From Asterochloris sp. CNOR1 (taxonomy: Eukaryota; Chlorophyta; Trebouxiophyceae; Trebouxiales; Trebouxiaceae): a stretch of 64,000 nucleotides of DNA. Shown here piece after piece: positions 12,251-52,500 of this stretch. Every line of letters starts with the position of its first letter. Position 1 is the first letter of the stretch. The DNA is taken from contig OZ017746.1 in the NCBI GenBank assembly GCA_963969365.1, positions 1,550,001 through 1,614,000 on the forward strand, in the 5' to 3' direction. A program made the position numbers and the translations under genes. The notes below the pieces were generated by a model. The model was not told the origin of the DNA. It searched no databases and saw nothing but the letters and a program-made list of their open reading frames with translations.

Positions 12251-15200
12251 ATGGCAGGGGCTGACGGAGCAGACCATCTGGACCCTCCCTTCTTTGTGGC
12301 TTTCACCACACTTATCTCGTAAGCTCTGCTGGCAAAGAGGTGCAGGCTTGTGGCAATGTAGCAGCATCTGTTCCACATCTTGTGACGCTCAAGCTGGCCT
12401 GCAGGTGGGCATACCTGTTTGTGCTTGGCCACATCCGTGACTTTTGCCGGAGGTTATTCATGCCAAGAGGGGCAGCAGCAAAGGTGGATTACAGTCATGC
12501 ATAGGCCTCTGGGACTATAGCCCTGACGCATTGTCAGTTGCCAACCTGCATGTGCTTTTGCCATCTGGACTCTGGGCTGCGAGCCAACTCCATGGCCTTG
12601 TGTGCCTCTGCAGGGCTATGCACCCATCAGGCAGGACTATGAGGATTTTTACACCAGGCGCATGTACTACAAAATTCATGTGAGGCAGCGCACCTGCTTG
12701 CAGACACATTGGGACCTGCCAAGCTGTGCTGGTCTCTGAAACAAGCCCTTGACTGAGGCGGGAGTGCTGCATGCCTGCAGGACTGCTGGAACCGACCCAT
12801 CAGCAGCGCCCCAGATGCTTGGATCGATGTTCTGGAGCGCAACCCAGTGGACGGCCAGAAGTGAGCTGCCCAGCTGAAGTGCACCCACTGAGGGTCACCT
12901 GGGAGACTTGTATGCTCTGTTGAGCCATGCTGAGTACATTACTCTGCCGTGCAGGCCCCTGAACCTGACTGGGAAGAAGCGGCGGTGCCTCAACCTGGGG
13001 TCATACAACTACCTAGGCTACGCAAATGCTGACCCCTACTGCACCCCAATGGTAATCAAGACCATGGAGCAGTATGGCTGGGGCATGTGCAGCAGCAGAA
13101 TCGAAGCAGGTGAGCCAGCGCTGTGGCCCCTTGAGCTGCTAGTGAGCAGAGCGGCCACCCATGCCAGAGAATGCAGCAGGTTGTACAGGCTGGCTGCAGC
13201 CTCAGGTGCATCCTTGCTGGAATCCAAGTCTGGCCCTTCCTCCCAGGCTCCCCTTGCATGACAGTCAGCTTCATTCAAATGCTTCCTCTCAGCAGCGTGC
13301 TGAGCTCCTGCCAACTCCATGCCACGAACCCTGTCCACAAGGGACTGCCGGCTCCCTGCTGACCTGCAGGTGGCATTCCTCAGCTCATATCAAGGGTCAT
13401 GGTCTGCAGGCAACGTTGGCATACAAAGGAGCTCTAGCAGTAGGCTTGCAAGCCAGCAGCAGCCTCACAGGCTGCCTTCCTGACTGGCACTTACCCAGAC
13501 ACACACCCACCATGTGGAAGGTCCTCACTGACCAGCAACCTGGTCCAGTGACGTCCCCCCATGCACAGCGGCTAGCAGCATCGGTACCATTCTGGATGCT
13601 CTGAATGCTTGGTTTCATGCTGCCCTCTGGGCACCACTCCCATCCACAAGGACCTGCCAGCCCCCAACTGCGCTGGAACCTGCACTGCCCCGCTCATAGC
13701 CCAGGCCAGGTCCCTCTGCCCTGCAGGCACCACAGGCTTGCACCTTGCTGTGTCCAAGGCTGGCACATTATCCGAGCACAGAACTCCATTGTTGCACTGT
13801 CCTCATCACAGCACGAGGCTGCACTCGAACCACACATCTCTGCCCTGCAGGCTGCACCGCTCTTGCTGTGGCATAGGCTATCTCACGGCAAATGTAAGCC
13901 CATGGCAGATCCAGCAGGGGACTGACTCTCCTTGTGCTGTGCAGGCAGCGCCCCCATCCACAAGGAGTTGGAGGACCTGGTGGCTGACTTCGTAGGCAAG
14001 GAGGCCGCCATTACCTTTGGGATGGGCTTTGCCACCAACAGCGTGGTCATCCCCGCCCTTGTGGGCAAGGGCTGCCTGCTGCTCAGCGATTCCCTAAACC
14101 ACTCCTCCATCGTGGCCGGCGCCCGCGGCTCGGGCGCCAAGGTCAAGGTGGGCTCGCTGCCGTCTGTTTGCAATGCTGCATTGTCATCACAATGCTGCAG
14201 TATGGAAGGGCAGCTGCCCAGGTTGCGGGGTTGGCTTGCAGGGAGTCCGCGTCCAGCTCCCTTACCATTTGTGAAATGGCAGACACTGCGTGACAGCTGG
14301 CTTCTTGCTGCTCAGCAGAAGTCGCAGCCCTGATCGTCATTCTGTACATGCTGCTGTGGTGATGTAGACCAGGTTTCCTGGCAGAAGAGAGACCGTTACC
14401 AACAATGATGCACCGCAGCTGCTGTGCAATGGCTTTGGCTACAGGGTCTCAAGGCCGGGGTGCTCTTGTGCTGCAGGTGTTTGCCCACAACGACATGCTC
14501 CACCTGGAGCAGCTCTTGCGTGACAGCATTGCCTACGGGCAGCCCAAGACGCGGCGTCCCTGGAAGAAGATCCTGATTGTGGTTGAGGGCGTGTACAGCA
14601 TGGAGGGGGAGATCAGCCATCTGGCCGAAGTCGTCGACCTGAAAAAGAGATACAAGGTCAGCCGTGTGGTGTTAACTGCATCTGCCCTGGGGAAGGAACA
14701 GCAAAGCCAGGCTTGGCAGCCTGGTTAAGGTAAAAGTGATATCAAAAATAAACACATGGGTTACCTCACTGCCTGCAGTGCTGGGCCTGCTTGCAGCTAA
14801 CTGCTGGCGCCAGTCCATAATTTCGCAGCACTTCCTGGCCTTGTCAGTGATGGTGTCACCCCCTGCTCTTGTGCTTGTCACATCTTTGCTGCCACACAGT
14901 ACATGCTACCCTTGCCTGCTGTTCCAAGCAGCTGCCGCCGCCCCTGCAGGCGTACCTGTACCTGGACGAGGCACACAGCATTGGTGCTCTGGGCAAGACT
15001 GGGCGCGGCGTCTGCGAGCACACAGGAGTGGACCCTGCAGATGTGGATGTCATGATGGGCACCTTCACCAAGTCCTTTGGCTCTGCTGGGGGCTACATTG
15101 CTGCAAACAGGTGACCAAGGCTGAGGGTGGGCTGCACAGCGCTTGCTGCTGCAGACACGTCTTACTTGCTGCATCCTCTTGCTCTGCAGTGGTATACCCT

Positions 15201-49544: not shown

Positions 49545-52500
49545 ATGCAGAGCATGCGGTCAAACCCTAACACTGCTGAGGGGGGAGGGGACAGATGGGC
49601 CGGCAGAGGCCTCTATGGGCTCCCTCTGAACAGTGTCTGGGGCGGGAGGCGGCAGGTGTGTGTTATGGGTCCTACTTCTCATATGCACAATGATCCTGGC
49701 TCAACTGAAACTGTTGATGCAGAAGGATGCAGCGCTCACGCCAGCAGGCATTGGGAGAACTTTTATAAGCACAATGCAGACAAGTTCTTCAAAGACAGGC
49801 ACTACCTAGATCAGGAGTTTCCAGAGCTCGCATCCAACCCTTGCAATGTATTAGAGGTACGCTGTAGTCCCAGCCTATCTAGAAGGACTGCATGTGGGCG
49901 ATCCTGAATTTGCTGGGTGTTGAGCTCCAATCGACCTGGCTGCTGCATCATCTTCTGCAGAGGATGATGTGCATCAGGTGCGTACAGGTCGACTGCGGCA
50001 ACACTCAACCCCAGCTTCTCTCCTGCAGCTCAACCTAGGGCTCTATGTTGCCTGGACCCTGCTGATTGACACGCAGGCCCCTGTCCCGTACCTGCAGGTG
50101 GGCTAAGGATTGGGCCAGACTGCCACCCCTCTTCTGCAGCCCCGCCCACTCCTTCTGCTGGCAAAATGCGTGCTAGCCTCCAGCCTGTGTCAAAGCTCAT
50201 CCCATGCCTGCAGGTGGGCTGCGGAGTGGGCAACACTGCCTTTCCCCTCCTGGTGGCCAACCCTCAGCTGTGCGTCTATGCCTGTGATCTGTCTGCCACC
50301 GCCATCGGCATTGTGCGGGCGCACCCCCTGCACAGCACTGGCAGGGTGACTGCCTTTGTGGCAGACATCGCAGCGGCAGACCTCACGCTGCACGTGCCGG
50401 CCGCCAGCATTGATCTCTGCACCATGGTGTTCGTGCTGTCTGCGATCAGCCCAGATCAGATGGGACAGGTCAGCGCTGGGGAACTGTCTTGAGCAGCCCA
50501 TGGTGGCATGGACAGCCAGTGCTGAGCACCATGGGGTTGAGTCCCCACAGAAACCTGTACCTGCAACCTGGGAGGGCTCAGCTTTGTACTGTGCCTGACA
50601 GCATGTGTGCAGAGTCACTGCAGCCGTCTGCAGGCAGACCAGCGCAAAGCTGTTGCACAGATCCCCTTGCGTAGGTCACTGCCTGCATGGCAGCCGCCGC
50701 TGTCTGCTGGGGACGTCGTCAATGTGCAGGTGCAAGCCATTGCCCACATGGCAATGATCACTCTGAAGCGGTGCCAAACACAGTTGCAAAAAAAAGCACA
50801 GGCTCATGCCAAGCGCAGCACTCCACCTTGACGCGTGCAGGCTGTTGTCCCTGTTACAGCCACCCTGTTCTGCTTGAGTAACCCCTTCACGCCTGTTGCA
50901 GCCACCCTGTTGCTATGTGTGCAGGCCATCGCTTGTGTGGCAGCCACCCTGAAGCCTGGCACTGCCCGTGTGCTGGTGCGCGACTATGCAGAGGGGGACC
51001 TCGCACAGCAGCGCTTCCAGCGCAGCGGCCGCATGCAGCGTATCTCCCACAACTTCTACGCCCGCAGCGATGGCACCTGCGCCTATTTCTTCTCACAGGT
51101 GAGTTCTGGTGCTGTACCCTGGAGGTGTAGCACCTATGAGAGCCTTTGTGCTGTATGCCAGGAATGGGCTCTGCAACACATACTGGACACCACAAAATCA
51201 TGTGCATCTCAGCAACTGAGCTTCCCAGACACGACAGTCAAGGGTTGTGACCAGCCTTGGCCCTCTCAGCATTCTGAGGGCTCCACCTCAGTGCCCCAGC
51301 CGCGCTGGTGGCGGCAGCTGATCACAGGGATTTCTGTTTGTAGTGTCAAAGCACTCCTGACAGCTGGCCCCCCGCCGACCACTGGCTGCCTCCTGGGGTT
51401 GCTCACCCGTGCTCACCTGTCCCTTTGCCCCTTGTGCAGACCGACCTGCGGGGCCTGTTTGCCCGGCACGGCTTCACCTGCCAGCAGATGCACGTCCAGC
51501 AGCGCCAGATTGAGAACCGGCAGCAAGGCATCGTCATGCACCGCCGCTGGATCCAGGCAGTCTTCACATACCAAGGGCCTGCTCGCCCTGCCACACAGGA
51601 GGCCAGCCAGACCGAGCAGCAGGCAGGTTCTGCAGATCTGGCTGGCCCAGAACACCATAATTTGGCTGCCACAGTTCTCAGGCAGGCAGAGGTGCCCGCT
51701 GTGCAGGATGGTCTGCCCCCGCCTGGCCCAGCTGGGGCTGGCTGCATCCATCAGGAGGCGGCACGTGAAGCGTTCAGTCAGGCAGAGCGAGCCGGTCTGC
51801 AGGGCACCGTGCCTCTGCAGCAGCTCCAGCGCAACGGTGGTCGAGCAAGCAGCCAGGCGGATGATACCACTATGGATGATGCAGTGCCCCAGCTGGAGTG
51901 GGAGGAGCTATGTGCAGGGGAGGACGGGCTGGCTGCACTGCTGCAGCTAGAGGAGCCCGACCTGGTGGGTTTCGGATGCGATAGTTGCGCGAACTGATGG
52001 TGACGCTGGCCTGCCCGCTATGGAAGCCCATTCTAGTCAGTTTGGACTGCACTCGGGTGTCTAGACAACAGCTCCACACTGAGAGCGCACCCTGGCTGCA
52101 AGAAGGCGAGGTGCGAGCCAACAGTCCATGGTGGCCCCATCTCCGAAAGCGGCGCATGGGACTGCCCAGCTGGCTGCAGCCATCAGCGGTGTTGCCTGGC
52201 ATGAGGCTGCTCCCATGCTGCATGCTTGGCCAGGCACAGAAGTTGACGCCACCGCATCTGCAGCCTGTGCTGGCTGCTTCAGGCTCTCGCGGCAAGCACT
52301 GTCCGCTCATGCCGGAGCTGCATGTCTTGTGCTGTCTCTGGCCTGGGTGCTGTACCAGCTCTTCACCATCCAAGGCTGCTAGTGTCCAGCCGACTCCCCT
52401 GGCCATGGAGCGAGCTGCGCAGTGCATGCAGGTCGAGGAGACTGTGGCTTTCGGGGAGCAGCGCGTCCGCCTGCGCAGCGTGCCCCGGCACCATCGCAAC

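Follow-up and report, generated by a model that had tools for sequence, protein, structure and literature searches.

Gao and Lynch reportedly found in 2009 that internal gene duplications are frequent in eukaryotes and that some of them carry splice sites. The green alga Asterochloris sp. CNOR1 shares with that work frequent within-gene duplications, some containing splice sites, but the fossils in the alga are tied to exon edges and show a frame contrast between exons and edges.

A close single case comes from potato, where a tandem duplication across an intron-exon boundary of the RdRp gene gave a second intron (PMC4974935). As in the alga, the duplicated unit extends from an intron's 3' end into the beginning of the exon that follows; in the alga, however, the inner copy appears to have been absorbed into the old intron, and edge copies are present in 40 of 359 introns (264 kb). 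Hellsten et al. 2011, as reported in PMC3443670 and PMC4974935, described intragenic tandem duplication with splice signals in the unit. Novel intron positions in Drosophila have been attributed to sliding or tandem duplication (31 near intron pairs; PMC2891723). The alga resembles the former in the splice signals and the latter in that tandem duplication in or near exons alters intron structure, whereas its existing introns lengthen instead of new introns (none was confirmed) or new intron positions arising. The literature search listed no description of intronic exon-edge copies in green algae.

Exon-edge copies and their controls

The main tests covered 264 kb, namely the 64-kb window (the whole stretch of DNA presented here) and 200 kb downstream. 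Exons and introns were taken from self-trained HMM gene models, and splice-site usage was read from homology and these models. Of three HMM models, two merged or split genes too strongly and the third was used; its chains fuse neighbouring genes and contain some false exons. For the edge test 359 of 507 introns were kept (introns of 120-2500 with 40 bp or more in each of the two exons) and the others dropped, and at the cut-off of p<=0.0034 about 1.2 edges are expected per side by chance. Copies in their own intron were found for 22/359 acceptor-side and 19/359 donor-side exon edges, against 0/359 and 0/359 with reverse-complemented introns and 0/155 and 0/158 with exon bases 100-150 from the edge. 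The same test on a second contig gave 4/64 and 3/64. Matches become rarer with distance into the exon: 40-bp windows starting 0, 20, 40, 60, 80, 100, 130 and 160 bp from the edge matched in 35/718, 20/679, 8/643, 4/582, 2/508, 1/409, 2/313 and 0/207 cases, and windows from the opposite end of the exon in 1/424. Repeat pairs numbered 123 at lags of 40-800 and 2, 2, 5, 1, and 5 in five far lag ranges. The controls confirm that exon-edge copies in their own introns are real and far above chance, with similarity far higher at the edges than for random intron pieces.

It is hard to imagine how errors in the gene models, or chance matches arising from the abundance of CTGCAG in the genome, could produce this pattern. 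CTGCAG is indeed 1.36 times as frequent in introns as expected (398 vs 292, first-order Markov), and the self-trained models broke down over a part of the methyltransferase gene, where three false exons were called and one true exon was missed. However, almost nothing is found in other introns of matched length, in reverse complements, or at far lags, and the named genes are confirmed by homology. The initial annotation had also proposed duplicated acceptors behind many CTGCAG pseudo-acceptors. This origin of the CTGCAG enrichment was rejected: the sense form TGCAGG (219 vs 159 expected) is no more enriched than its reverse complement CCTGCA (320 vs 198), and the enrichment is without strand bias. 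Introners, as similar intron copies dispersed among unrelated genes, were not seen in the 264 kb at lags up to about 15.8 kb, far-lag pairs amounting to 1-5 per range. Tandem or mutually exclusive exons, in which a whole exon is duplicated with both splice sites and an open frame, are opposed by the single wrong-end match and by the lack of pairs joining two introns over the exon between them (0 vs 3.8 expected). Outside the window, L005:4248-4536 resembles a whole-exon duplication.

Nine introns had been named as carrying exon-edge copies, and a local copy is present in all nine (Table 1), two of them (ABC transporter 35302-35355 and methyltransferase intron 2) with weaker support, on the assumption that the original intron numbers correspond to the HMM introns. 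Controls were drawn from other introns, the own intron excluded (300 draws, floor p=0.0033). The LCB2 introns 13110-13944 and 15111-15653, the Ldh_2 introns 18028-18227 and 19118-19657, and the TauE/SafE intron 26870-27350 all reach this floor, and the ABC transporter intron 33340-33627 has p=0.0066. The ABC transporter pair 35105-35158 and 35302-35355 has p=0.0040 for the piece itself and p=0.0085 when the 50-bp edge is tested, values that are conservative because its own intron was among the controls. In methyltransferase intron 1 (true extent 49857-50213) the acceptor-edge copy 50098-50147 has p=0.0003 (3000 draws); in intron 2 (about 50469-50924) a lag-42 pair of score 44 crosses the acceptor 50925 and the edge test gives p=0.03. 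LCB2 gives a gapless protein alignment with Arabidopsis LCB2a over residues 1-431, which supports the exon model. Outside the window, 8 of 10 submitted junctions lie inside one Pfam match, a biased rate because they were picked from 23 strong matches for looking conserved; of the remaining two, one is without a family match and one (GDT1) has the junction outside the best domain stretch.

Across the whole genome, CTGCAGGTNNGC pairs number 30, 37, and 19 at lags of 60-90, 91-121, and 122-152, and 10 and 6 at the longer lags of 212-242 and 392-422. A survey of CTGCAGGT pairs at 40 loci (46 pairs; about 20 further loci were left out) labelled 18 as single-edge copies, 5 as donor-to-acceptor, and 23 otherwise. 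Of the donor-to-acceptor loci that lie beyond the window, an acceptor-edge array is the better reading for L054 and a donor-edge copy for L049, whereas L033 and L055 were assigned neither single-edge reading.

Table 1. Exon-edge copies and related exons in the window
Feature	Position	Strand	Basis
Exon of LCB2 (serine palmitoyltransferase) preceding intron 13110-13944	12955..13109	+	gene model, Arabidopsis LCB2a alignment
LCB2, further diverged copy	near 13323-13389	+	lag 309 to 13632
LCB2, decayed copy of exon start 13945, lag 314, AG now GG	13630..13656	+	
LCB2, copy of acceptor and exon start (exon 15654), lag 241, AG kept at 15411-15412	15400..15451	+	
LCB2, second copy of acceptor and exon start, lag 156, AG now AA, 73% over 103 columns	15446..15548	+	
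Ldh_2, copy of exon-1 end and donor (true 17987-18060, donor 18028), lag ~118, 81%, GT kept	18106..18178	+	
Ldh_2, two more copies of exon end and donor (true from 19084, donor 19118), lags 169 and 343, GT kept	19253..19590	+	
Cys_Met_Meta_PP enzyme, copy of acceptor and exon start 22438, lag ~143, AG now AA	22267..22364	+	
Cys_Met_Meta_PP enzyme, copy of acceptor and exon start 23819, lag ~145, AG kept	23628..23710	+	
TauE/SafE, copy of exon end (true 26785-26851), lag 178, 79%, ends 18 bp before donor	26963..27029	+	
ABC transporter, copy of acceptor and exon start 33628, lag ~118, AG kept	33460..33549	+	
ABC transporter, copy of exon 35105-35158, lag 197, 72%	35302..35355	+	
Copy of acceptor and exon start 36661, lag 64, 83%, AG kept	36589..36623	+	
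METTL6-like exon missed by HMM (HWENFYKHNADKFFKDRHY...NVLE), donor GTACGC after GAG, 5' limit provisional	49734..49856	+	METTL6 homologs
METTL6-like intron 49857-50213, copy of acceptor and exon start 50214, lag 116, 71%, AG kept, stop inside	50084..50153	+	
Methyltransferase, lag-42 copy across acceptor 50925 (partner 50892-50951), weaker support	50850..50909	+	
Copy of acceptor and exon start (true 55932-55997), lag ~236, AG now TG	56170..56233	-	

Splice sites, reading frame, and coding constraint

The edge copies lie at lags of 63-400 with a median of 128 (49 alignments), compared to the duplication size of 60-200 bp that had been proposed. The copies hold the exon edge together with adjoining intron and its splice site: where the alignment reaches the junction, AG is kept in 12/19 acceptor copies and GT in 9/13 donor copies, and the other 17/49 alignments include fewer than two intron bases. 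The dinucleotides are in register and kept in 21/32 copies, which is near the 0.59 given by 77% identity, and the intron half is weak. In-frame stops occur in 7/49 copies, and a stop or a frame-breaking gap in 22/49. The initial annotation was right on both the included splice sites and the stops.

The kept AG and GT dinucleotides might suggest that the copies are functional alternative exon ends under selection, and one Ldh_2 intron holds two intronic cores that share 93% identity over a length of 43 bp, exceeding the identity of their flanks. However, the splice sites are retained only at about the neutral rate, the lags are not multiples of three, the stops and gaps interrupt many copies, and the differences are flat across codon positions (25.5, 21.2, and 24.3%), which makes such a function very improbable. 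Edge copies are without coding constraint, and no purifying selection on them as real alternative exons was detected. In 12 in-frame exon duplicates the corresponding differences are 21, 22, and 33%.

The lags modulo 3 (0/1/2) are distributed 19/0/0 for exon-internal repeats as annotated, 21/20/19 for edge repeats, and 9/9/8 for intron repeats, a contrast that is partly model-dependent because the HMM labels repeats as exonic only with an open frame. One of the 19 exon-internal repeats (50850-50951) is actually located at an intron edge, and most of the other 18 lie far inside long exons. Of the exon-exon lags in the C5 stretch, 7/9 are divisible by three.

Probable tandem duplication and decay at splice junctions

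Very probably, the copies were left by small tandem duplications that are kept out of the protein by splicing and thus let introns grow cheaply. Duplications with units of about 60-400 bp would arise throughout genes, and their survival would be set by reading frame and splicing. Inside an exon a duplication would persist if its length is a multiple of three, whereas within an intron or across one splice junction it would persist at any length. A junction-crossing duplication would be tolerated because the original exon is still bounded by the outer splice site, while the inner copy becomes part of the intron. This inner exon edge and its spare splice site would then decay neutrally, resulting in longer introns with fossil exon edges. 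The units would be strictly tandem, the duplications neutral, and the outer splice sites, judging from homology and gene models, those in use. Local tandem duplication across junctions in many genes had been proposed from the window; it is supported, as is neutral decay of the copies.

Dispersed copying of short exon pieces nearby (templated insertion) could also be considered. Alignments at edges do not span the full lag (median alignment length/lag 0.38), and with matches chosen only from the exon side the intron half of the presumed unit can hardly be detected (0.429 vs 0.391, n=25, p=0.08; 0.409 vs 0.384, n=21, p=0.13). However, matches fall close to the chance level from about 80 bp into the exon onwards and number 1/424 at the wrong exon end, exon and intron pairs fill more of the lag (medians 0.84 and 0.53), and alignments just as short result from simulated tandem decay, so that templated insertion is quite improbable.

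The duplications could instead be directed towards splice junctions or towards transcribed genes, for instance through breaks linked to transcription or splicing. Edge pairs number 50 vs 33.3 under uniform placement, which was reached in 0/500 simulations, and intergenic pairs 5 vs 13.8. In addition, the edge excess is not explained by decay with uniform ages, for which an edge:intron ratio of 1.1 is predicted vs 2.5 observed (p about 0.001). However, for copies as diverged as those observed, a ratio of about 2 or more is predicted from nothing but the conservation of the exon copy. Uniform duplication with 0.3 substitutions/site and frequent gaps yields edge/intron identities of 0.81/0.77, lengths of 48/45, and a ratio of 2.0, compared to 0.79/0.76, 45/37.5, and 2.5 in the observed repeats, a fit that requires most duplications to be old and depends on the age and gap rate chosen; with 0.4 substitutions/site the ratio is 7.9. 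Uniform duplication and neutral decay at one plausible age thus approximate the observed repeats, and junction targeting is therefore not needed and is unlikely.

Proposed intron gain and intron growth

Tandem duplication had also been suggested as a route to new introns. Comparing donors against acceptors gave 5 and 4 of 416 introns at p<=0.005 with about 2 expected each, which does not support tandem duplication as a general origin of introns here, and no new intron formed in this way was confirmed. The sole donor-acceptor candidate with a strong matching repeat, 50098-50213 in the methyltransferase gene (lag 116 in the HMM model), derives from a false gene model. Its reading as a new intron was withdrawn because METTL6 homologs end the upstream exon at 49856; one METTL6 match starts only four residues ahead of the supposed junction. 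According to homologous proteins the real METTL6-like intron is 49857-50213 (357 bp), and 50098-50213 is an ordinary acceptor-edge copy inside it.

The proposed link to large introns held. Introns with a copy have a median length of 445.5 bp (n=40) vs 260.5 bp for those without (n=276, both edges p>0.05; Mann-Whitney p=4e-8). Intron bases within the span of a detected pair amount to 9.2%, and dividing the counts by simulated detection rates puts the intron share from this age class very roughly at 14%. Splicing may be a shield that makes junction-crossing duplications nearly cost-free, and their steady supply could have built a substantial part of the intron length, which we propose only tentatively and consider rather doubtful. 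How introns lengthen in transposon-poor genomes is poorly known, and edge duplication is a measurable source. It has a built-in clock, in that the exon copy is conserved and the intron copy is free to change, and it offers simple tests of selection, the lag modulo 3 and the codon position of differences, which can be used in any intron-annotated genome.

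Gene models and exon-edge copies

Two papers treat tandem duplication as an established source of introns (PMC3443670, PMC2891723), and a third documents one duplication crossing a splice junction in potato (PMC4974935). A genome-scale account of green-algal introns growing through such duplications was not found in the open-licence literature. The assembly comprises 56.4 Mb in 21 contigs at a GC content of about 0.60, and PMC6652019 gives 56 Mb for Asterochloris, with 56-62% GC across 98% of the genome. A simple HMM gene finder, trained on the window and the 200 kb downstream (264 kb together), predicted 507 introns there, with CAG|GTGAGC-like donors and CTGCAG|G acceptors; about 5% of the donors are GC, and we read the last LCB2 intron (window 16253) as having such a donor (CACAG|GCGAGC). 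CTGCAG, and above all CCTGCA, is in excess in introns of the 264 kb, with no sense-strand bias. The LCB2 protein aligns without gaps to residues 1-431 of Arabidopsis LCB2a, covering every junction of the submitted model, and its top matches among 120 listed are from Myrmecia bisecta (74%) and Trebouxia (73%). Matches to Pfam families confirm the domains of Ldh_2, TauE, ABC transporter, Cys/Met enzyme and methyltransferase.

The initial annotation had claimed that introns carry decayed copies of the adjoining exon edges (edge copies), and this likeness indeed exceeds that to other introns. Each 50-base exon edge was searched for in its own intron and, as a control, in 300 length-matched pieces of other introns: 22/359 acceptor and 19/359 donor edges had a copy at p<=0.0034, with about 1.2 expected by chance in each case. 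Reverse-complemented introns yielded 0/359 matches twice, and exon bases 100-150 from the edge yielded 0/155 and 0/158. A 50-kb replicate stretch on a second contig gave 4/64 and 3/64, with controls of 0/64 and 0/64, and 1/28 and 0/25. A blind repeat scan found 123 pairs at distances between copies (lags) of 40-800, while five distant lag ranges held 2, 2, 5, 1, and 5. Introns are longer where an edge copy is present (median 445.5 bp, n=40) than where there is none (260.5 bp, n=276).

Genome-wide, CTGCAGGTNNGC pairs number 30, 37, and 19 within lags 60-152, versus 10 at 212-242 and 6 at 392-422. At 40 of these loci the HMM labels 18 of 46 pairs as donor- or acceptor-edge copies, the gene models being rough on such short pieces. 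Three loci (L044, L054, L028) each contain about three tandem copies of an acceptor and exon start, the last of which runs into the predicted exon. At a further locus, L005:4248-4536 (C1:1658248-1658536), the gene model has a pair of 112-bp introns at a lag of 205, likely a tandem duplication of a whole exon plus intron.

Form, placement and age of the duplications

Matches fall from 35/718 at the exon edge to 2/508 at 80-120 bp, and the exon's wrong end gives 1/424, which fits units spanning the junction and not exon pieces scattered close by. The lag is a multiple of three in 19/19 exon-internal pairs (12/12 counting non-overlapping loci), although the HMM tends to label in-frame repeats exonic, whereas remainders are even for edge pairs (21/20/19) and intron pairs (9/9/8). 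Thus, the reading frame filters exon-internal duplications but not edge ones, and so edge copies are untranslated. One of the 19 exon-labelled pairs (50850-50951) really sits at an intron edge, the remaining ones mostly deep in long exons; in the replicate, 7/9 exon lags are in frame. Predicted exons of the window contain tandem repeats whose lags are all multiples of three, for example two copies of 126 bp at 92%. Pairs with copies in both introns flanking one exon were absent (0 versus 3.8 expected).

Tandem repeats in predicted exons of the window
Feature	Window coordinates
Tandem repeat in predicted exon	2408-2557
Tandem repeat in predicted exon	8197-8448
Tandem repeat in predicted exon	41815-41961
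Tandem repeat in predicted exon	42714-42914
Tandem repeat in predicted exon	61525-61702
Tandem repeat in predicted exon	62688-62783

Edge pairs are more frequent than uniform placement predicts (50 versus 33.3; 0/500 simulations), and a decay simulation with uniform ages misses this excess (edge:intron ratio 1.1 versus 2.5 observed). Fixed at 0.3 substitutions per site with frequent small gaps, the simulation gives 2.0, with edge/intron identities of 0.81/0.77 (observed 0.79/0.76) and alignment lengths of 48/45 (observed 45/37.5). Because the exon copy is conserved while the intron copy is free to change, edge pairs would stay detectable for longer. As the fixed-age simulation comes near the observed values, targeting of splice junctions, though conceivable, would not be needed. 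The simulated ratio is steep with age, 0.9 at 0.2 and 7.9 at 0.4 substitutions per site, and the fit implies, under this model, that the detected duplications are mostly old. Young local duplications are scarce compared to old ones in the 264 kb, which may reflect either an older burst or the loss of young tandem copies through recombination. The intron-side half of duplicated units is weakly detectable, which the same neutral decay may explain. Intergenic local repeat pairs are fewer in the 264 kb than under uniform placement (5 versus 13.8), but this deficit falls short of significance when decay is simulated (p=0.16).

The methyltransferase gene and new introns

In the METTL6-like methyltransferase gene the HMM called 50029-50097 an exon and 50098-50213 an intron. 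The size of this intron matches the tandem lag, 116, as would be expected of a newly formed intron. METTL6 homologs rule out that this is a new intron born by duplication. The conserved stretch HWENFYKHNADKFFKDRHYLDQEFPELASNPCNVLE at 49734-49856, in a different frame and in an exon missed by the HMM, ends at the donor GAG|GTACGC, and the next conserved residues, VGCGVGN, begin at 50214. Judged by this homology, the true intron is 49857-50213, and the HMM exons upstream of the copy at 50084-50153 (region 49595-50097) are false. That copy (p=0.0003) is an ordinary, decayed one of the intron's acceptor and the next exon start, and it contains a stop. Copies had been proposed for introns 1 and 2 of this gene; the acceptor-edge copy bears out the first, and intron 2 is weaker, with a pair at lag 42 that spans the acceptor at 50925 and an edge test of p=0.03. 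Tandem duplication as a route to new introns, also suggested initially, did not hold up: comparing donors against acceptors gave 5/416 and 4/416, near chance, the sole candidate was refuted, and new introns were confirmed at none of the loci.

Fate of the copies

Two intronic copies of an Ldh_2 exon end (window 19253-19295 and 19427-19469) share a 43-bp core at 93% identity, with much less similar flanks. Across 49 alignments, edge copies differ at 25.5, 21.2, and 24.3% of the three codon positions (21, 22, and 33% in 12 in-frame exon duplicates serving as positive control), and 22 of the 49 contain a stop or frame-breaking gap. Where copies align up to the junction, the splice dinucleotide is kept in 12/19 (AG) and 9/13 (GT) cases, approximately as predicted from 77% identity. 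With flat codon positions, stops and gaps, and AG and GT near the neutral rate, the edge copies therefore look neutral, their spare splice sites being neither kept nor silenced by visible selection.
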